A stretch of DNA of 64,000 nt from the NCBI RefSeq assembly GCF_008360935.1, contig NZ_SRXO01000001.1, positions 496,001 to 560,000 on the forward strand. The letters are read 5' to 3'. This stretch comes from Siccirubricoccus phaeus. Lineage in GTDB: Bacteria > Pseudomonadota > Alphaproteobacteria > Acetobacterales > Acetobacteraceae. A program made the translations under genes and the position numbers. The notes beneath the pieces are model-generated. The model searched no databases, was not told the origin of the DNA, and saw nothing but the letters and a program-made list of their open reading frames with translations. This document shows positions 131 through 57,732 of this stretch, piece after piece (within the stretch, counting starts at the first letter, position 1; the number at the start of each line of letters is the position of its first letter).

Positions 131-236
131 CTGGAGCGGGATGGGTTGAGCTTCGTTCACCCACCCCGCTCCAGCCACTCGTTTTGTCGCGTGATTCACG
201 CTTTTCGGTGAGTCCACCTCAGGCGATCGCGCTCTA
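131..236 (-). repeat. Family A palindromic repeat, copy A1
   Basis: This element is made of two stem-loops. One is an imperfect hairpin bounded by CTGGAGCGGG and CCCGCTCCAG; the other carries the arms GCGTGATTCACGC and GCGATCGCGCTCTAG. It is the reverse orientation of copies A3 and A4, and is more diverged. It lies between convergent genes. Confidence 0.75.
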
Positions 237-246
237 GTCTCCCGCT

Positions 247-282
247 TCCGAAGTCCTGCGGACTGCGAAATCGGGACACTAG
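247..282. repeat. Family B half-element, copy B0
   Basis: This corresponds to one terminal half of the 120-bp family B repeat: the GAAGTCCTGCGGACT hairpin followed by GGGACACTAG. The terminal CTAG provides, on the minus strand, the TAG stop codon of the AsnC-type gene at 279-281. Confidence 0.7.
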
Positions 283-838: not shown

Positions 839-960
839 CTAGTGGCCCGATTCCGCAGTCCTGCGGCCTTCGTTCCCGGGCCACCAGCTTTTGGTTTCAA
901 TGGCCTGCCTGTCCGCTGCGTTCGCTGGAAATCCAGCGAATTTCGCGGGCAGGACACCAG
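839..960 (-). repeat. Family B palindromic repeat, copy B1
   Basis: This full-length copy of about 122 bp begins CTAGTGGCCCGA and ends CAGGACACCAG. It contains two internal hairpins: AGTCCTGCGGCCTTCG (imperfect) and TTCGCTGGAAATCCAGCGAA (perfect). It lies in the divergent regulatory region between the AsnC regulator and dadA, downstream of the candidate operator, and probably separates them. Confidence 0.85.
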
Positions 961-31723: not shown

Positions 31724-32518
31724 ATGAACACCGATTGGCTCGGCCTCGGCGGCAAGGTGGCCGTGGTGACGGGCGCGGGCGGCGGCATCGGCCGCGCCTG
31801 CGCCAAATCCTTTGTCGAGGCGGGCGCCTCGGTGATGCTGCTGGACCTGGATGGGGAAAGGCTGGCGGCGGTCGAGCGCGAATTGCGCGGGGCCGGCGGG
31901 CAGGTGGCGGCGCAGGCGTGCGACACCACCTCCGAGGCGGCCGTCAAGGCCGCGGCGGAGGCGGCGCAGACGGCGCTGGGGCCAGCGGATATCCTGGTGA
32001 ACAATGCCGGCATCCTGCGCCCCGGGCCGCTGGCGTCGCTGACGCTGGCCGAATGGAATGCGCTGCTGGCGGTGAACCTCACCGGCTACCTGCTCTGCGC
32101 CCAGGCCTTCCGGCCGCAGCTGCTGGCGCGGCAGGGGGGCGCCATCGTCTCCGTCGCCTCCATCGCCGGCCGCAACCCGCAGCCGCGCTCCGGCGCCTAT
32201 TCGCCGAGCAAGGCCGGCGTGCTCATGCTGTCCAAGCAGCTTGCCCTGGAATGGGGGCCGGACGGCATCCGCAGCAATGTCGTCTCGCCCGGGCTGGTGC
32301 GCACGCCGCTGTCGGAGGCCTTCTACCAGGCCCCCGGCGTGGCGGAGAAGCGTGCCGCCATGGTGCCGCTGCGGCGGGTGGCGGGGCCGCAGGACATGGC
32401 GGATGCGGTGCTGTTCCTGGCCAGCCCGCGCGCCAGCTACGTGACCGGCGCCGAGATCCTGGTGGATGGCGGCCTCGACCAGATGGTGATGGAGCTGACG
32501 CCGCGGCCCGGCTTCTAG
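31724..32518 (+). CDS. Short-chain dehydrogenase/reductase
   Basis: A 264-residue classical SDR. The cofactor motif TGAGGGIG (residues 16-23) and DLDGERL favour NAD(H). The catalytic residues are Ser146, Tyr159 and Lys163 (VASIAGRNP ... AYSPSKAG), and LVNNAG is at 91-96. The C-terminus VTGAEILVDGGLDQMV is standard. GGGAGGA lies 6 bp before the ATG at 31724. It follows hemB by 52 bp and may be cotranscribed. Its alcohol substrate is unknown. Confidence 0.92.
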   Translation: MNTDWLGLGGKVAVVTGAGGGIGRACAKSFVEAGASVMLLDLDGERLAAVERELRGAGGQVAAQACDTTSEAAVKAAAEAAQTALGPADILVNNAGILRPGPLASLTLAEWNALLAVNLTGYLLCAQAFRPQLLARQGGAIVSVASIAGRNPQPRSGAYSPSKAGVLMLSKQLALEWGPDGIRSNVVSPGLVRTPLSEAFYQAPGVAEKRAAMVPLRRVAGPQDMADAVLFLASPRASYVTGAEILVDGGLDQMVMELTPRPGF

Positions 32519-37503: not shown

Positions 37504-37610
37504 CTAGAGCGTGATCGGTTGAGGTCGAATCGACCGAAACCGTGAATCACGCGACCGAACAATGAGCTAGAGCGGGGCGGGTGAGCGCAGCTCAATCGAT
37601 CCCGCTCTAG
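37504..37610 (+). repeat. Family A palindromic repeat, copy A4
   Basis: The best-preserved copy: CTAG at both ends (37504-37507 and 37607-37610). The first stem-loop is GCGTGATcggttgagg ... ATCACGC, an internal GCTAGAGCGGGGCGGG opens the second, and GATCCCGCTCTAG closes it. It lies upstream of the aldehyde dehydrogenase gene. Confidence 0.9.
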
Positions 37611-40324: not shown

Positions 40325-43300
40325 CAGGGCAGCTCCTCCGGCAGGGTCTGATCCAGCTTCGCCATGCCCGCCCAGGGATCGGCCTTCTGCCGCGCGAGCC
40401 GCGCCGGGATGGTGGCGATGGTGAAGGCAGCGGGGTCGAGCTTCGTCGTCACCTCCCGCCAGGCGAGCGGCGTCGCCACGGTGGCGCCCGGCCGCGCCCG
40501 CGGGCAGTAGGAGCAGATGGCGGTCGCCCCCGCCCCGTTGCGCAGCCAGTCCACCAGGATGCGGCCGCGCCGCTTCGCCTTGGGCACGGTGGAGATGAAG
40601 CGGTCCGGCGCCTCCTTCTCCAGCGCCCGGGCGAGGCCGCGGGCGAAGCCGCGCACCGTTTCCCACCCCGCCTCCGGCCGCAGCGGCACCACCAGATGCA
40701 GCCCCTTGCCGCCGGTGGTGCGGCAGAAGCTTTCCAACCCCATCCCCTGCAGCCGCTGCCGCAGATCGAGCGCCGCCTGCACCACCTCGGCGAAATCCAC
40801 CCCCTCGCCGGGGTCGAGGTCGAACACCACCCGGTCGGGATGCGCCGGGTCGGCCAGGGTGGCGCCCCAGCCATGCAGCTCGATCGCGCCCATCTGGGCG
40901 CAGGCCAGCAGCCCCTCCCGGTCGCGGATCGCGAGGTAGGGCTGGCCCTCCGCCTCGCCCTCCGCGATCTCGCGCGGCATGCCGCGGCCGCCATGCTTCT
41001 GGAAGAAATGCTCGCCGGCGATCCCTTCCGGGCAGCGCACCAGGGCCAGCGGCCTGCCGGCGATCTCCGGCAGGGCGCGCGCCGCCACCGCCTCCCAATA
41101 GGCGGCAAGGTCCTGCTTGGTGATGCCGGGCCAGAGCTCGCGCTCCGGATGGGTGATCCGCATGCCGCCGACCTCCGCCGTGCCGCGCGCCGGCTTCGGC
41201 GCATGGACGATGACCCCGGCGCGCGGCCGCTTCGGCCGCAGCGCGGCCCGGGGCACCTCCGGGTTGGGTACCGGCCGGACCACCTCGGCGGGCTGCTTGT
41301 CCTCCCGCAGCCCGAGATAGGTGGAGTGGCGCAGCCGCCCCGCCCCGGTCCAGCCGATATACTGCACCTCCGCGACCAGCTCCGGCCGCACCCAGGCGAT
41401 GGTGGCGTCGGGCGGGTCGCCGGCCAGCAGCATCCCGGCGGGCGGCGGGGCGGCGAGCTGGCCGAGCCGGCGGCGCAGCGCCACCAGCTCCTCCCCGGTG
41501 AAGCCGCTGCCGACGCCGCCGGCGTAATGCAGCCGCCCCGCCTCGTCATGATAGCCGAGATGCAGCGCGCCCAGCCCCTGGCGGCTGCCGGCGGGGGGCG
41601 TCCAGCCGAGGACGATGAATTCCTCCCGCCCCTGGCACTTCACCTTCACCCAGTCGCGCCCGCGGATGCCGCGATAGGGCGACTCCGCCCGCTTGCAGAT
41701 GATGCCCTCCAGCCCCAGGGCACAGGCCTGCCGCCGCACCCGTGGCGTCTGGCCTTCCAGATGCTCGCTGTAGCGCAGCCCGCCGCGCCAGGGGCCGAGC
41801 CCTTCCAGCGCCGTCTTGCGGTCGATCAGGCGGCAGGGGCGGAGGTCCCAGCCATCCAGGTAGAGCAGGTCGAAGAGATAGAGGTAGAGCCCCTTGCGCC
41901 GCCCGCCCCGGCTGAGCGCCGCCTGCAATTCGGCGAAGGAGGAGAGGCCGTCGGGGCGGAGCGCCACCAGCTCCCCATCCAGCAGGGCGGTTTCGGCCGG
42001 CAGGGTGGCGGCGGCGCGGGCGAGGTCCGGCAGGCGGTCGGTCCAGTCCTGGCCGTTGCGGGTGATGAGGCGGATGGTCTTGCCGCGCTTCTCCACCAGC
42101 AGGCGGTAGCCGTCGAATTTCACCTCGCTGAGCCAGTCGGCGCCTTCGGGCGGTTCTTCCACGAGGGTGGCCAGGGCAGGCTTCTGATCCTCGGGCAGCT
42201 CGCCCGGGATAGCGCCGGGCAGAGGTGGCTCGGCCTTGGCCTGGCGCCTGCGCGGCGTGGTGCGGGCAGCCGGGGCGGGCGCAGGTTCTTCGGTCTCCGG
42301 CACCGGAGGGGTCGCCTCGCGGCGGGATGCCAGCCTTGCCACCTCCGAGGCCGGTTCCGGGCGCCCCGCCCGGGGCGCCGGCTGCGCCTCCTCCGCCGCT
42401 GCCGACCGGCGGGCTGCGCGCTTTGTCCGGGATGTAGCTTCCGTCTTCTCTGCCGCCGGCGAGGAAACAGCGCGCTTCGTCCGGGATGCAGCTTCCGTCT
42501 TCTCTGCCGCTGGCGAGGAAGCAGCGCGCTTCGTCCGGGACGCAGGTTCCGCCTTCCCTGCCGCCGGCGAGGGAGCAGCGCGCTTCGTCCGGGACGCAGG
42601 TTCCGCCTTCCCTGCCGCCGGCGAGGGAGCAGCGCGCTTCGTCCGGGATGCAGGTTCCGTCTTCCCTGCCGCCGGCGAGGAAGCAGCGCGCTTCGTCCAG
42701 GACGCAGGTTCCGCCCTCGCCGCCGCCGGCAAGGGAGCAGCGCGCTTCGTCCGCGATGCGGGTTCCTCCTTCCCCGCCCCCGGCGGAGGAGCGGCGCGTC
42801 CCGTCCGCGATGCGGGCTCCGCCCGCTCCACCGCCGGCGGCGGAGCGAGGCGCGCCGTCCGGGCCGCGGTCCCTGCCCTCCCCGGCGCCAGTCGCGGCGC
42901 GGCCGGCTCCGCCTGGCGAAGGGGCACGGGCTTCGCCCGCTGCGGCGCCGGGGGCGCAGCGGCGCGCTCCGCCTCGCGGACGGAGCCGGGCTTCGCCTTC
43001 TCCGGCACCGGGCGCGGGGCGGGGCCGGGTGCCGCCTCCAGCGCCGTGGCATCGGCGCCCTGCCGCTCTGCCCCGTCATGCTCCTTGATGAGCAGCCAAT
43101 TCTCCGCCTTCTCCCGCCCGCGCGGCTTCATCCGCACCAGCGCGAAGCCGCCCGAGAGGCGCTGGCCGGAGAGGCGGAATTTCAGCTCCCCCGCCGCCAG
43201 CCCGGCCGCCGGGTCGCCCACCGGCTCCCAGCTTCCCTCATCCCAGATCTCCACCTCCCCGGCGCCGTAATGGCCTTCCGGGATGCGGCCATGGAAATCG

Positions 43301-45679: not shown

Positions 45680-45801
45680 CTAGTGTCCTGATTCCGAAGT
45701 CCTGCGGACTTCGGTCTCGGGCCACCAGCTTTTGGTTTCAGTGGCCTGCTTGTCCGCTGCGTTCGCTGGAAATCCAACGAACTTCGCAGGCAGGACACTA
45801 G
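45680..45801 (-). repeat. Family B palindromic repeat, copy B2
   Basis: A full copy with CTAGTGTCCTG at the left and CAGGACACTAG at the right, so CTAG bounds both ends. Inside are the GAAGTCCTGCGGACTTCGG hairpin and TTCGCTGGAAATCCAACGAA, with GGGCCACCAGCTTTTGGTTT between them. It is the same orientation as B1, the reverse of B3 and B4. Confidence 0.9.
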
Positions 45802-47781: not shown

Positions 47782-50229
47782 ATGGTGCGCCGCATGGACT
47801 CCCGCCTGTCGAGCCCCGGTTCCGCCTCGCGCCGGCGGCGATCGCGGCATTACCGCCGGCCGCCCTCCGCCTGGCGCTGGGCATGGCGTGGCCTGGCCCT
47901 GGTGCTGCTGCTGCCCTTGCTGGCGCTGGCGGCCGGGGCCGGCGCGCTGTGGTGGAGCCTGCCGGCGCGGCAGGAGAGCCTCTCCCTCCCCGGCCTCTCC
48001 GCCCCGGTGGAGGTGCTGCTGGACAGCCATGGCATCCCCCGCCTGCGCGCGGCGAACGAGCTGGACGCCGCCATGGCGCTCGGCCTGCTGCATGCCCGGG
48101 ACCGGATGTTCCAGATGGAGCTGATGCGCCGCGGCGCCGCCGGCCGGCTGGCGGAGATCGCCGGCAGCGCCGTGCTGCGCAGCGACCGGCTGGTCCGCAC
48201 CCTGGGCCTCGCCCGCCGCGCCCGGGAGGATCTCGCCACCCTGCCGGCCGAGACGCGGGCGGTGCTCGAAGCCTATGCCGCCGGGGTGAATGCCTGGATC
48301 GCCGCCCGCGGCCGCTTCGCCGCGCCGGAATTCCTGCTGCTCGGCGCACCGGAGCCCTGGGTGCCGGAGCATTCCCTGCTCTGGGGCAAGGTCATGGGCC
48401 TCTGGCTCTCCGGCAATTACCGGGAGGAGCTGGACCGCGCCCGGCTGGCCACCATCCTGCCCGCCGCCCGGCTGGCCGAGCTCTGGCCGGAGGATACCAG
48501 CCCCGGCCGGCCGGACCGCGTCGTGCCGGACCGCGCCGCCGCCCTGGATGGCGGCCATCTCGCCCGCCTCGCCGCCGCCCTGCCCCGCTTCCCGGAGCCC
48601 TTCACCCTGCCCGGCTCGGCCAGCAATGCCTGGGCGGTGACCGGGGCGCACAGCGCCTCCGGCGCGCCGCTGCTGGCCAATGACCCGCATCTCGGCTTCC
48701 AGGCGCCCATCCTCTGGTACCTGGCGCGGGTGGAGCTGCCGGGGGGACGGTTCCTGGCGGGCGCCACCGCGCCCGGGGTGCCCTTCATGGTCATCGGCCG
48801 CAATGAGAGCCTGGCCTGGGGCTTCACCACCACCACCTCGGACACCCAGGACGTCTTCGTCGAGCGGCTGGCCGGGGAGGACCGCTACGAGGCCCCCGGC
48901 GGCCCGCTGCCCTTCGCCGAGCGGATGGAGACGATCCGGCTGCGCGGCGCCGCCCCGGTGCGGCTGCGGGTGCGGGAGACGCGGCACGGCCCGGTCATCT
49001 CCGACCTCGATGCCGAGCCGCCGCGCGACACGGTGCTGGCGGTCGCCATGGCCAACCTCGCCCCGGGCGACACCGCCGCCGCCGGCCTGCTGGCGCTGAA
49101 CCGGGCGCGGACGCTGGAGGAGGCGCAGGCGGCGGCTTCGCTCATCACCAGCCCCCCGCAGAACCTGACCGTCGCCGAGGCGCCCCGGGCCGGCGGCGCG
49201 GCGGGCGGGAGGGTCGGGATGTTCCTCACCGGCCGCACCCCGCTGCGCCGGGCGGGGGACGGCACCCTGCCTGCCCCGGGCTGGGATGGCAGCCATGACT
49301 GGCTGGGCTGGGTGCCCTTCGCCGAGCTGCCGCATGTGCCGGCGCCGGAAAGCGGGGTGGTGGCCAATGCCAATAACCGCGTGGCGCCGCCGGACCACCC
49401 GGTCTTCCTCGGCCAGCACTGGCCGGCGGATTGGCGCTTCCGCCGCATCGGGGAGTTGCTGGCGGCGGTGCCGAAGCAGGATGCGGCAGGCTTTGCCGCC
49501 ATGCAGCTGGACACCGTCTCGCTCTTCGCCCGGGCGGTGCTGGCGGAAGACGGGAAGCTGCACCGCCTGCCGCGGCCGGAGGGGCTGGCCGGGCGGGCGC
49601 TGGACCTGCTGCTCGCCTGGGATGGCGACATCGGCGCCGACCGGCCGGAGCCGCTGATCTTCAACGCCTTCACCCGCCAGCTCGGCCGGCTGGCGCTGGC
49701 GGCGGGCGGGGTGCCGCCCGGGCTGGCGGAGGCGCGGAGCGGCTTCCTCCGCCGCCTGCTCGGCCCGGGGGAAGAGGGGGCGGCCTGGTGCCTCGGGGAT
49801 TGCACCGTGCTGGCCGGGCGGGCGCTGACCGAGGCGGTGGCGGGGCTGGCGGCCCAGCTCGGGCCCAACCCCGGCGCCTGGCGCTGGGGCGCGCTGCACC
49901 AGGCGCGCTTCGAGCACCCGCTGCTGCGCGCCATCCCCTGGCTGCGCGACCGGGCGCGGCTGGAGGTGCCGACCGGCGGCGACGAGGCCACCCTCTCCCG
50001 CGGCGGGATGGGGCCGGCGAGCTTCGCCCATGTCCATGGGGCGGGGCTGCGGCTGGTGGCGGACCTCGCCTCCTCCGCCGGGGTGCAGGCGATCATCGCC
50101 ACCGGGCAGTCGGGCCATCCGCTTTCGCCGCATTGGGCGGACCTGCTGCCGCTGTGGCAGGCGGGGGAGACGCTGAGCCTGGGCCCGGCGGCGGTGGCGG
50201 AGGGCGGGCGGCTGAGCCTGCGGCCCTAG
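47782..50229 (+). CDS. Penicillin acylase family protein
   Basis: An 815-residue N-terminal nucleophile hydrolase. An Arg-rich start and one hydrophobic segment (GLALVLLLPLLALAAGAGAL) form a membrane anchor or signal. The alpha-chain has PVEVLLDSHGIPRLRAANEL and ALGLLHARDRMFQMELMRR. The autoproteolytic site is SASNAWAVTG with Ser281 as the expected new N-terminus. HLGFQAPILWYLARVELPGG and VANANNRVAPPDHPVFLG follow. Acyl-homoserine lactones or other amides are possible substrates. The stop codon TAG at 50227-50229 is the first part of repeat B3. ATGs at 47782 and 47794 are both possible. Confidence 0.9.
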   Translation: MVRRMDSRLSSPGSASRRRRSRHYRRPPSAWRWAWRGLALVLLLPLLALAAGAGALWWSLPARQESLSLPGLSAPVEVLLDSHGIPRLRAANELDAAMALGLLHARDRMFQMELMRRGAAGRLAEIAGSAVLRSDRLVRTLGLARRAREDLATLPAETRAVLEAYAAGVNAWIAARGRFAAPEFLLLGAPEPWVPEHSLLWGKVMGLWLSGNYREELDRARLATILPAARLAELWPEDTSPGRPDRVVPDRAAALDGGHLARLAAALPRFPEPFTLPGSASNAWAVTGAHSASGAPLLANDPHLGFQAPILWYLARVELPGGRFLAGATAPGVPFMVIGRNESLAWGFTTTTSDTQDVFVERLAGEDRYEAPGGPLPFAERMETIRLRGAAPVRLRVRETRHGPVISDLDAEPPRDTVLAVAMANLAPGDTAAAGLLALNRARTLEEAQAAASLITSPPQNLTVAEAPRAGGAAGGRVGMFLTGRTPLRRAGDGTLPAPGWDGSHDWLGWVPFAELPHVPAPESGVVANANNRVAPPDHPVFLGQHWPADWRFRRIGELLAAVPKQDAAGFAAMQLDTVSLFARAVLAEDGKLHRLPRPEGLAGRALDLLLAWDGDIGADRPEPLIFNAFTRQLGRLALAAGGVPPGLAEARSGFLRRLLGPGEEGAAWCLGDCTVLAGRALTEAVAGLAAQLGPNPGAWRWGALHQARFEHPLLRAIPWLRDRARLEVPTGGDEATLSRGGMGPASFAHVHGAGLRLVADLASSAGVQAIIATGQSGHPLSPHWADLLPLWQAGETLSLGPAAVAEGGRLSLRP

Positions 50230-50346
50230 TGTCCTGCCCGCGAAGTTCGCTGGATTTCCAGCGAACGCAGCGGACAAGCAGGCCACTGAAAACCAAGGCT
50301 AGTGGCCCGAGAACGAAGTCCGCAGGACTTCGGAATCGGGACACCG
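50226..50346 (+). repeat. Family B palindromic repeat, copy B3
   Basis: It begins CTAGTGTCCTGCCCGCGAAG, carries the perfect hairpin TTCGCTGG-ATTT-CCAGCGAA, an internal CTAG (50299-50302), the CGAAGTCCGCAGGACTTCG hairpin and the end TCGGGACACCGG. The TAG at its left end is the stop codon of the acylase gene. Confidence 0.9.
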
Positions 50347-50454
50347 GAGTCCGGGCCGGCCGGCGCAGGCCCCCCCGCCGAGCGCCGGAGGGCAAGCGTG
50401 AGGCCGGGCCTCGCCGGCCGGGCGCAGCGTCTCAACGGCGCAACACGCAAGCGA

Positions 50455-51270
50455 ATGGTTGATTTCCTGACCCGCCGCCCCGAGACTGTCCGGGAAATGC
50501 TGCAACGCCCACCCCGCCGGCCGCAATTCTTCTACACCACCGCGCCGTTGCCCTGCCCCTACCTGGCCGGACGCACGGAACGGAAAGTCGTCACCGAGCT
50601 GACCGGGCCGGAGGCGGAGATGCTGCATGACCGGCTCTCCCGCGCCGGCTTCCGCCGCAGCCACAACATCGCCTATTCGCCGGTCTGCCCCGGCTGCAAT
50701 GCCTGCATCCCCATCCGCATCCTGGCCCCGGAATTCGAGCCCAACCGGGCGCAGCGGAAGCTGGCGAAGATCAACGCCGATGTCGCCGGCTTCGAGATGC
50801 CGGCCCGCGCCACCGCCGAGCAATTCGCGCTCTTCCAGCGCTACCAGCGGGCCCGCCATGGCGAGGGCGACATGGCGGCCATGGGCTTCTACGACTACCG
50901 CGCCATGGTCGAGGACACGCCGATCACCACCGGCATGATCGAGTTCCGCGACGGCCATGACGCGCTGCTCGGCGCTTGCCTGACGGATTGGCTGAGCGAC
51001 GGGCTTTCCGCCGTCTATTCCTTCTACGCGCCAGAGGCGGAGCGGCGCTCGCTCGGCACCTGGGCGATTCTCTGGCTGGTGAAGCGGGCGCAGCAGCTTG
51101 GCCTGCCCTTCGTCTATCTGGGCTACTGGGTCCCGGAGAGCCGCAAGATGTCCTACAAGAGCCGCTTCCGCCCGAGCGAAGTGCTGATCGGCGGGAGCTG
51201 GCGGATGCTGCAGGAGGCCGAGGCGGCGCCGGAGCCGATCGACTGCCAGGTGAAGGAATCGATCGGCTAG
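50455..51270 (+). CDS. bpt: Arginyl-tRNA--protein transferase (Ate/Bpt family)
   Basis: The 271-residue protein transfers an amino acid from aminoacyl-tRNA to protein N-termini, marking them for ClpAP degradation (N-degron pathway). The N-terminal zinc/cluster domain reads LPCPYLAGRTERKVVTEL with CPGCNACIPIRI. The C-terminal GNAT-like domain has SDGLSAVYSFYAPEAERRSL and FVYLGYWVPESRKMSYKSRF. The start follows repeat B3; ATG 50455 has a weak ribosome-binding site. The stop codon TAG at 51268-51270 lies in repeat B4. Family B copies in direct orientation therefore flank the gene. Confidence 0.93.
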   Translation: MVDFLTRRPETVREMLQRPPRRPQFFYTTAPLPCPYLAGRTERKVVTELTGPEAEMLHDRLSRAGFRRSHNIAYSPVCPGCNACIPIRILAPEFEPNRAQRKLAKINADVAGFEMPARATAEQFALFQRYQRARHGEGDMAAMGFYDYRAMVEDTPITTGMIEFRDGHDALLGACLTDWLSDGLSAVYSFYAPEAERRSLGTWAILWLVKRAQQLGLPFVYLGYWVPESRKMSYKSRFRPSEVLIGGSWRMLQEAEAAPEPIDCQVKESIG

Positions 51271-51387
51271 TGTCCTGTCCGCGAAACTCGCTGGATTTCC
51301 GGCGAAGGCAGCGGACAAGCAGGCCACTGAAAACACAAGCCACTGGCCCGAGAACGAGGTCCGCAGGACTTCGGATAGGGACACTGG
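51267..51387 (+). repeat. Family B palindromic repeat, copy B4
   Basis: It begins CTAGTGTCCTGTCCGCGAAA and ends TAGGGACACTGG. The inner hairpins are CGCTGGATTTCCGGCGAAGG and GAGGTCCGCAGGACTTCGG. It provides the stop codon of the bpt gene. Confidence 0.88.
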
Positions 51388-51784
51388 ATCGGTTCACCTC
51401 GCCTGCGCTCGGCGAACTCGCCTCCAGCCCTTTGTTTGGTCGCATTTTCCGTCCGGCGATTCCGCCGGACTTGAAAGTGCTCCAGGCGGCTACCCCTCCC
51501 CCGCTGGCGGATCGGCGGCACTGCCGCCAACGGGTGGGATGCTCCGGCCCCGAGGCAGTACGGCGCTTACCCCCGCCTTGGCGACATCCCCCACCGCATT
51601 GCCGCCTCACCCGCGGCGGCGCTCCTCACCGGCCCCGTCACCCCAATCCGCGGCGGCGCCCCGCCACACCCCCACCCTGACCCTCCCCCGCCGAGCGGGG
51701 GAAGGGGCAGGCCCGGCGTCGCGCCTGGAAAACAATCCCGCCTTGCCAGTAGCCGGGGCCGGTGGGCGGCGCCACATTGGGGCG
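51388..51784. other. Intergenic region with a family G hairpin
   Basis: No gene is convincing here. The G2 hairpin is at 51451-51470. A TTGGCGGC-like palindrome, GCGGCACTGCCGCC, occurs near 51514. The next gene starts at 51785. A weak ORF upstream in the same frame (from 51539) has no ribosome-binding site and is probably not coding. Confidence 0.5.
51451..51470 (+). repeat. Family G hairpin, copy G2
   Basis: GTCCGGCG-ATTC-CGCCGGAC is a perfect 8-bp stem, preceded by TCGCATTTTCC and followed by TTGAAAGTGC. The same layout is found at 5334 and 52397. Confidence 0.65.
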
Positions 51785-52327
51785 ATGGCCCCGCAGATCC
51801 ACCTGGCCGAGGCGCCCGACGGCGCGCTGACCTATGACATCCCCCTGCCGCCCGAAGCCCTGCCCCCCGTCCGGCCGGAGGAGCTGCTGGAGGCCTGGCA
51901 CCTTGCCCGCCGCGCCGCCGCCCTGCGCCAATGGGGCCCGCGCCGCGTGCTGCTCTTTCCCCGCCCTGGCGGCGAGACCACGGAATTCGCCATCACCGAC
52001 CGCGATGCCGGCTGCTGGGCGGAGGCGATCGACCGGGCCGCCGGCCTCGAGACCATCGGCGGCCTCGCCCTCTGCCTCCGCCTGCTGGCCTTGGTGGAGC
52101 TGCTGACCCGGGCGCCGAGCCTCGCCGCCCTGTTCGAGGTGACGGCCGAGGGAATCGAGCTGCACCCGTCCCTGCTGGCCGCCGCCGCCGCCCTGCCGCT
52201 GGACGCCGCGGCCCGGTTCGACGAATCCAGGCTGCGGGGGCTATTGTCCCGTGCGCTGCCGGAGCGCGGCGCGCGGCGCCGCCTGGAGCGGCCTCACGCC
52301 GGCCGTGCCGGGGCGAGGCCGCTCTAG
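51785..52327 (+). CDS. Hypothetical protein
   Basis: The 180-residue protein is rich in Ala, Leu, Arg and Glu. An N-terminal MAPQIHLAEAPDGALTYDIP is followed by helices such as LLEAWHLARRAAALRQWG and a strand RVLLFPRPGGETTEFAI. The C-terminal 45 residues are basic (GARRRLERPHAGRAGARPL). I do not recognise a family. Codon use is typical. The stop codon TAG at 52325-52327 is inside repeat B5, so the natural C-terminus may have been shortened or extended. Confidence 0.6.
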   Translation: MAPQIHLAEAPDGALTYDIPLPPEALPPVRPEELLEAWHLARRAAALRQWGPRRVLLFPRPGGETTEFAITDRDAGCWAEAIDRAAGLETIGGLALCLRLLALVELLTRAPSLAALFEVTAEGIELHPSLLAAAAALPLDAAARFDESRLRGLLSRALPERGARRRLERPHAGRAGARPL

Positions 52328-52368
52328 TGTCCTGCCCAGGCCGCGGGCCTGCGGAATCAGGACACTGG
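52324..52368 (+). repeat. Family B short element, copy B5
   Basis: A 45-bp minimal version: CTAGTGTCCTG at the left, a CCCAGGCCGCGGGCCTG hairpin and CAGGACACTGG at the right. It provides the stop codon of the upstream hypothetical gene. Confidence 0.8.
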
Positions 52369-52396
52369 GCTATTATTCTCTCGCATCTTCCGAGTC

Positions 52397-52416
52397 GTCA
52401 GGCGATTCCGCCCGGC
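52397..52416 (+). repeat. Family G hairpin, copy G3
   Basis: GTCAGGCG-ATTC-CGCCCGGC is an imperfect stem, preceded by TCGCATCTTCC and followed by TTGGACATGC. It lies 32 bp before the lipoprotein start. Confidence 0.5.
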
Positions 52417-52447
52417 TTGGACATGCACCAGCCTGAAAGTTCCCCCG

Positions 52448-57510: not shown

Positions 57511-57732
57511 CAGAGCGGGTCCGGCTCGCTTTCGCTCACCGGCCCCGCTCTGGTTTCTGCTGGGTTGCGTGATTCACGCTTCCGGTCGTACCGACCTCGA
57601 GTGATCACGCTCAGTCTGTTGGGTCGCGTGATTCACGCTTTCGGTCGTACCGACCTCAAGCGATCACGCTCAGTCTGTTGGGTCGCGTGATTCACGCTTT
57701 CGGTCGTACCGACCTCAAGCGATCACGCTCAG
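57511..57732 (-). repeat. Family A element with three 59-bp tandem units, copy A5
   Basis: The first stem-loop, CAGAGCGGG ... CCCGCTCTG (57511-57553), is followed by the second stem-loop repeated at 57567, 57626 and 57685 with an exact 59-bp period. Each unit is GCGTGATTCACGC, then TTTCGGTCGTACCGACCTCA, then GCGATCACGC. The last unit ends 20 bp before the ABC ATPase start. Confidence 0.92.

Follow-up and report, generated by a model that had tools for sequence, protein, structure and literature searches.

A repeat at the ends of four genes

The DNA analyzed here (the window) is a stretch of 64,000 nucleotides from Siccirubricoccus phaeus, a member of the Acetobacteraceae (contig NZ_SRXO01000001.1, positions 496,001 to 560,000 of the forward strand; G+C content 71.3%), and its feature of interest is a short repeat called family B. 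An earlier note on this DNA, made from the sequence alone, reported that the TAG stop codons of four genes lie precisely within the CTAG ends of family B copies. This placement is accurate. The relevant CTAGs start at 50226 for a penicillin acylase gene, at 51267 for bpt and at 52324 for a hypothetical gene whose stop begins at 52325, and an AsnC regulator gene on the minus strand stops in the CTAG at 279-282, its TAG occupying 279-281. Pfam supports the identities of three of these genes (AsnC/Lrp, penicillin amidase and ATE_N/ATE_C). No Pfam family matches the gene at 52325, and its DNA is conserved adjoining bpt in both congeners used for comparison (genomes G001 and G002).

Family B is a short, non-coding repeat of about 122 bp with inverted ends starting CTAGTGTCC. 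The full layout is a CTAG, a first hairpin, an A-rich linker, often an inner CTAG, a second hairpin, and a final CTAG, and single-hairpin short forms measure 45-49 nt. The two ends of the 122-bp consensus are identical over their first 9 bases and agree at 17 of the first 24, and the mobile body starts with GTGTCC and finishes with GGACAC. When the six window copies were folded and compared with shuffles, five proved clearly more stable, with z values between -3.6 and -6.9, and the sixth gave a value of -2.6.

Exact CTAGTGTCCTG ends are found 67 times in the window's genome, compared with a single occurrence of the reversed control. A profile search of 277 kb of own-genome segments, namely the stretches fetched around family B end sites, returned 126 matches, of which 69 are full length; for the whole genome that figure is a lower bound, with whole-genome BLAST having scored only 40 of 213 candidates. 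The full copies have a median identity of 93% (range 68-98%) to a hand-typed consensus. Their left ends, a side partly fixed by the search pattern, read CTAG in 52 of 69 cases, and their right ends, which the pattern does not fix, read CTAG in 38 of 69. The remaining ends are mostly CCAG, CTGG or CCGG, as expected from decay of CTAG. Among 64 right ends of full copies, 62 have C as the outer base, and the figure is 74 of 76 when partial hits are added.

A 24-base family B probe matched 44 stretches among genome contigs. The titles of these records name Neoroseomonas, Siccirubricoccus, Belnapia, Paracraurococcus and Rhodovarius (all of which we take to be Acetobacteraceae), metagenome-assembled genomes (MAGs) of Acetobacteraceae or Rhodospirillales, and one Alphaproteobacteria MAG. 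A looser end pattern matched 11 of 120 genomes of the window's family, including the window's own genome (G000), which at 48 places ranks highest by far. A plasmid collection searched with the 122-bp element yielded nothing at E 1e-5, and an Rfam search of the window found nothing at gathering score. Some family B copies lie at contig ends of the own assembly (C3:124, C24:189, C33:225), as do insertion sequence (IS) genes of the IS5 type (C17:2-214, C45:2-214). Because of these positions, the assembly may be broken at repeats, and full IS copies may have been lost from it.

CTAG as the insertion target

The window contains 24 CTAG sites where 72.9 are expected from shuffles, a three-fold depletion, and 1 of the 24 falls inside a called gene even though called genes cover 80% of the DNA. 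Labels such as genic, stop and intergenic are approximate here and below, because genes were called with a simple script that scores codons and had been trained on 28 open reading frames (ORFs) of the window. The earlier note had proposed that CTAG is rare in this DNA and occurs mainly at TAG stops. The rarity is borne out, but the preference for stops is not: the free CTAG sites in the 277 kb comprise 13 at stops, 32 in intergenic DNA and 7 within genes. For CTAGs associated with family B, the corresponding numbers are 23 at stops and 113 intergenic. The stop share is therefore 23/136 for family B and 13/52 for free sites (Fisher p 0.22); the family B value is lowered by the fact that the two ends and the inner CTAGs of a copy are all counted. 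Thus, the element is no commoner at stops than CTAG itself. Stops are probably hit because CTAG is rare and scarce within genes, not through recognition of stop codons. The target of family B is the TA inside CTAG, rarely that of another YTAR; of the three bases of TAG, the element is read as contributing just the G.

The end of an element is exactly at the TAG with which a well-coding gene stops in 20 of 158 cases when partial hits and opposite-strand palindrome hits are included, and in 16 of 128 when the 69 full copies are considered alone. Viewed from the genes, 58 well-coding 3′ ends face an element, and 20 of these end directly in it. Another 11 stop in a CTAG farther upstream, which in 9 cases is followed by AGC, the start of a TAGAGC-type repeat located between the gene and family B. 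The other 27 end in TGA (21), TAA (2) or TAG without a preceding C (4).

Orthologous gene ends and empty sites

Exact family B ends number 11 in G001 and 1 in G002. We sought 31 CTAG gene tails of the own genome in G001 and obtained a usable orthologue for 25 (15 direct, 10 chained). The comparison with orthologous gene ends of a relative, which the earlier note had called for, showed that family B is present at none of the 25 gene ends in G001. The element is therefore polymorphic between species, and hence mobile. Likewise, none of nine G001 loci bearing family B matches a fetched own family B site on both flanks. One of the G001 loci (L160) has a single flank that matches two own family B loci, which was read as a neighboring repeat rather than a shared site.

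Pairs of empty and filled sites reveal the insertion point. In G001, CTAGAGCGGG stands where the own genome has CTAG-[B]-CTAGAGCGGG, and C34_98600 shows the empty form CTAGAGCGGGATC against CTAG-B-CTAGAGCGGGATC. The reverse arrangement occurs at window position 32515, where an empty CTAG stop in the own genome is matched in G001 by CTAG, a TAGAGC-type element and CTAG again, with matching flanks. In these pairs, insertion is seen at TA with the target on both sides. At C12_308300, the sequence GCGG-TAA-CGCC in G001 corresponds to GCGC-TAG...GCTC-TAA-CGCT in the own genome, with CTAA on the right. This single locus, which carries a chain of elements, is best read as a TA duplication within a TAA stop, where the left copy would have become TAG since the element starts with G.

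Stop codons at the 25 element-bearing gene ends are TAG in 12, TAA in 2 and TGA in 10 of the G001 orthologues, with one ambiguous, and they lie at the same place or within two codons (for site 17 the TAG counted lies two codons upstream, and for site 6 the TGA lies one codon downstream). The controls came from 32 element-free TAG stops; we took the 24 with the best scores, of which 21 have an orthologue; gene C18_90500 sits in both sets, and G001 carries a TAGAGC-type element at three controls. The orthologous stops of the 21 are TAG in 12, TAA in 2 and TGA in 7. Because 12 of 25 and 12 of 21 are TAG, element-bearing TAG stops look like ordinary, pre-existing TAG stops, although with samples this small a moderate difference would be missed.

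Three of the four genes fall within the comparison with the congeners, and they illustrate different histories; the syntenic contig does not extend to AsnC. The TAG of bpt is present in both congeners, neither of which has family B there. The acylase gene ends in TGA in both congeners, and the origin of its TAG is ambiguous. At the 52325 locus, G001 reads GCCGC-ATAG-CCTGAAAG, whereas in the window three chained pieces with CTAG-like boundaries lie between GCCGC and CCTGAAAG. This chain exchanged the last two residues of the protein for 14 new ones and a new TAG. Hence the proposal that family B elements supply the stop codons of these genes applies to the 52325 gene, where the chain did create a stop, but fails for bpt, whose TAG predates the element, and the orthologue counts also speak against it as a rule. 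The related suggestion that a CTAG-targeting miniature inverted-repeat transposable element (MITE) could settle at gene ends without harm holds up.

Table 1. Family B copies, associated stop codons and other CTAG-bounded features of the window
Feature	Positions	Strand	Remarks
Full-length family B copy	50226..50347	+	Left CTAG holds acylase stop; right end decayed to CCGG
TAG stop, penicillin-amidase (penicillin acylase) gene	50227..50229	+	Within CTAG of the element; both congeners have TGA
Full-length family B copy, 121 nt	51267..51387	+	Stop of bpt lies in left CTAG; CTGG at right end
TAG stop of bpt (ATE_N/ATE_C)	51268..51270	+	Also TAG in G001 and G002, both without family B
Other CTAG-bounded hairpin (CTGGAGCGG...CCGCTCTAG)	52283..52327	+	Source of 14 new C-terminal residues of hypothetical protein, ending at new TAG; absent in G001
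Short 45-nt family B hairpin	52324..52368	+	CTAG holds TAG stop 52325-52327
Third piece of 52283-52431 chain, CTGG...CCAG	52365..52431	.	G001 has ATAG alone for whole chain
Short family B form of 49 nt, a single hairpin (unit 2)	234..282	.	CTAG 279-282 holds AsnC stop, minus strand
Full-length family B copy	839..960	-	One end decayed to CCAG
Full-length family B copy, CTAG at both ends	45680..45801	-	Different element at orthologous CTAG in G001
Empty CTAG at TAG stop	32515..32518	+	TAGAGC-type element exactly here in G001, CTAG on both sides
TAGAGC-type CTAG-bounded repeat, other family with same layout	37504..37610	.	

Several CTAG-bounded families share a common layout of hairpin, A-rich linker often ending in AAG or GAG, CTAG, hairpin and CTAG, as seen in chains such as C18_67800, C45_74500 and C12_308300. 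The window also holds three head-to-tail copies of a 59-bp hairpin (57556-57732) that resemble TAGAGC-type repeats, two of them 92% identical to the reference copy, and a repeat with a 54-bp period in nine registers (42283-42970, family D1).

Search for a mobilizing transposase

The earlier note had called for a search of the genome for a transposase gene with terminal inverted repeats like those of family B. None with TAGTGTCC-type ends was found among the own-genome loci examined (two IS630, four DDE_Tnp_1 and three of eight PF13340 matches), nor did the loci at hand contain an autonomous copy in the form of an inverted CTAGTGTCC-type pair 400-3500 bp apart. The own intact IS630-type transposase (L031, NF033545) occupies 1055 bp between TAGAGC-type ends. 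We rejected it as a partner because such ends suit the chained families rather than family B. The second IS630 match of the genome is a fragment.

Among 70 IS630 loci of the window's family, none has TAGTGTC-type ends on both sides, and the best inverted pair starts with TAGAG in 26. The outer bases of these TAGAG-type pairs are C in 40 cases, T in 12 and never a purine (the pairing score gave an outer C one extra point). These bases correspond to YTAR targets and thus speak for a duplication limited to TA. The TAGAG-type ends resemble those of the chained families, as a comparison of L248 (TAGAGCGCTTTCACGCTGACTGGA) with the repeat adjoining the family B copy of L004 (TAGAGCGGTTTCACGCTGACTGTGC) illustrates.

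After 20 more IS630 loci had been added (90 in total), relaxed pairing flagged L327, L234, L035, L058 and L067. The last three were set aside, as no transposase was recognized between their ends when the ORFs were inspected by eye. L327 is a 1495-bp IS630 element (NF033545) on contig 85 of a genome (G107) that also carries family B. One of its ends starts TAGTGTCCTG and the other TAGTGTTCTG, with junctions that read C followed by TAGTGTCCTGTCGCAGTGATTT and C followed by TAGTGTTCTGTCGCAGTGATTA, so that CTAG is present on both sides. The right partner initially flagged at 2423 is not its end; the true right end, at 1590, was found by an inverted-repeat search. L242 and five of six plasmid relatives (six fetched of 149 records) likewise end in C followed by TAGT on both sides, and no end pair was found in the sixth.

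Another flagged locus, L234 (1376-2282), is an IS630 fragment of 907 bp between such ends that is apparently short at its C-terminus. Over 16 bases, one of its ends agrees with the right end of the copy at 45680-45801 in the window, but with the consensus over only 9, and we regard this likeness as supporting only. Its transposase reading frame, seemingly shortened, stops at the TAG of the fragment's own CTAG end, which recalls IS870. In the group of CTAG-bounded IS630s related to L327 (L345 527-2020, L346 533-2017, and L347, L348 and L349, each 530-2011), the element contains a divergent regulator gene or has one at its margin, four annotated as MarR family and one as a transcriptional regulator.

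Proposed mechanism and alternatives

Our conclusion is that family B is probably a non-autonomous MITE moved by a transposase of the IS630/Tc1-mariner type and inserting at TA almost always within CTAG. It most likely represents a new family of a known kind, an IS630-type MITE, and not a new mechanism. An IS630 transposase would act in trans by cut-and-paste, and the element would enter at a TA, nearly always in CTAG, leaving the target visible on both sides. If the TA of a stop codon were hit, the gene would still end in TAG, since the first base of the element is G; a TAG stop would be unchanged by insertion, and a TAA stop would become TAG. The duplication of TA alone, the cut-and-paste step in trans and the exact partner are parts of this model that we infer. 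The ending of host genes by family B is then most likely a by-product of CTAG preference in GC-rich DNA. Of the two transposase types that the earlier note had put forward as mobilizers, IS630 is probable, given the L327 end that starts TAGTGTCCTG.

Several observations weigh against this model. The own-genome loci examined hold no transposase with matching ends. Family B shares its first 10 bases with one end of L327 and little beyond, and because the likeness stops there, L327 can be no more than a relative of the partner; none of the 90 IS630 loci matches family B over the whole end. Ten of the 25 element-bearing stops are TGA in G001, where an ancestral CTAG is unproven. The duplication of TA alone is read from other IS630s, by way of their outer bases, and from a single own locus. 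The median copy lies about 7% from the consensus, which does not support recent activity, and mobility is deduced from a comparison of species rather than from observed transposition. An IS630 with TAGTGTCCTG-type ends is a concrete thing to look for, and one with both ends starting TAGTGTCCTGCCC or TAGTGTCCCGATTCC beside family B copies would name the partner.

Placement at gene ends could instead reflect selection for a putative function, with copies retained because the hairpin serves as a terminator or an mRNA 3′ stabilizer. The folding of the window copies and the 20 copies directly after a stop would fit such a role, but family B does not exceed free CTAG in its share at stops and the insertions differ between species, which makes this view unlikely. 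We consider it somewhat less plausible still that the element brings a whole TAG that replaces whatever stop was there. The 10 TGA stops among 25 in G001, the acylase TGA in both congeners and the stop made by the chain at 52325 are compatible with such replacement; against it, turnover is similar at element-free TAG stops (7 of 21 are TGA), the bpt TAG pre-exists, and several sites without family B hold CTAG.

Other types of transposase have also been considered. Family B would then be a MITE of an IS5-family element of the IS427/IS870 group, which is recorded to require CTAG; we take IS870 to be a member of the IS5 family. PF13340 matches occur in all 11 family B-carrying genomes searched (80 in all), yet none of the 30 loci looked at, some of them cut by contig ends, has TAGTGTC-type ends on both sides, and the four own DDE_Tnp_1 loci show no such ends. 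The title of the IS870 report (as cited in PMC6471742) and the excerpted account of MITEPsy1, recorded as ‘IS5?’ and inserting at CTAG or YTAA (PMC3189936), do speak for this origin, but the IS5 half of the earlier proposal finds no support in the 30 loci, and we judge it improbable. Least credible by a wide measure is a palindrome of the repetitive extragenic palindromic (REP) or bacterial interspersed mosaic element (BIME) type, moved by a REP-associated tyrosine transposase (RAYT) that recognizes hairpins and a tetranucleotide. The hairpin architecture, the high copy number and the location mostly outside genes are reminiscent of such repeats. However, the Y1 transposase domain (PF01797), found in 5 of 14 control genomes, has no match in the own genome, the ends are inverted and the target is duplicated, and CTAG lies at both ends, in contrast to the GTAG or CGTC at one end of REPs that the excerpted text of PMC3733652 describes.

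Implications

If family B is an IS630-type MITE as proposed, a plain preference for CTAG in GC-rich DNA would direct insertions next to genes at little cost, and this may help to explain the high numbers of MITEs in such genomes. A further prediction is that species should differ in the families that have hit one and the same gene-terminal CTAG. At 4 of the 25 gene ends, the CTAG in question is occupied in G001 by a TAGAGC-type element, and in 3 of the 4 it is of another family than in the own genome (sites 1, 8 and 23). These three orthologous gene ends agree with the prediction, as does the intergenic CTAG at 45680, where both species carry elements, but different ones. It is tempting to speculate, although we hold the idea only tentatively, that CTAG-type stops are shared, reusable landing pads. 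Several IS630-type MITE families might re-insert into the same gene-terminal CTAG, form chains, fix TAG over TAA and sometimes rewrite C-termini, so that target choice would shape stop-codon usage and protein ends across a GC-rich lineage.

Comparison with known systems

Among the matches listed in our literature search, which mostly left subscription journals outside, no paper dealt with MITEs of Acetobacteraceae that target CTAG at stop codons. The comparisons that follow draw on titles and partial texts of the cited papers. In work by Tenzen and Ohtsubo (titles cited in PMC2170065), IS630 has a TA target, a TA duplication and a preference for the TA in 5′-CTAG-3′, and for ISY100 the flanking TAs are target rather than element (PMC2170065). 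Family B shares the TA target and probably its duplication with these elements, and the CTAG preference with the IS630-associated transposon. It differs in encoding no transposase, and the likeness to IS630 noted here is one of target.

The title of Fournier et al. 1993 (cited in PMC6471742) states that IS870 depends on a 5′-CTAG-3′ target to form the stop codon that ends its ORF1. The CTAG target and the stop codon at the junction are common to IS870 and family B, but the stop ends the insertion sequence's own ORF in one case and a host gene in the other. MITEPsy1 of Pseudomonas syringae, whose insertion at CTAG or YTAA was noted above, is thought to derive from ISPsy2 (‘IS5?’ in the table of PMC3189936) and has different inverted repeats. 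The Correia/NEMIS repeats of Neisseria resemble family B in their TA termini and as abundant small mobile repeats near genes; unlike it, they have a 24-bp terminal inverted repeat and other hosts, and promoter functions are on record for them (PMC2229807, PMC10969869).

Another parallel is RUP of Streptococcus pneumoniae, a MITE attributed to IS630-Spn1 by end similarity (PMC2229807). Like family B, it is short (about 107 bp) and present in high copy number, with inverted ends, TA termini and an attribution to IS630. Family B differs from it in the CTAG preference, the GC-rich genomes of the Acetobacteraceae type, the frequent abutment on stops, the chains with other CTAG families, and the lack of a partner IS in the own-genome loci examined. 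RUP is the known precedent for an IS630 MITE, and family B most likely belongs among elements of this known kind.

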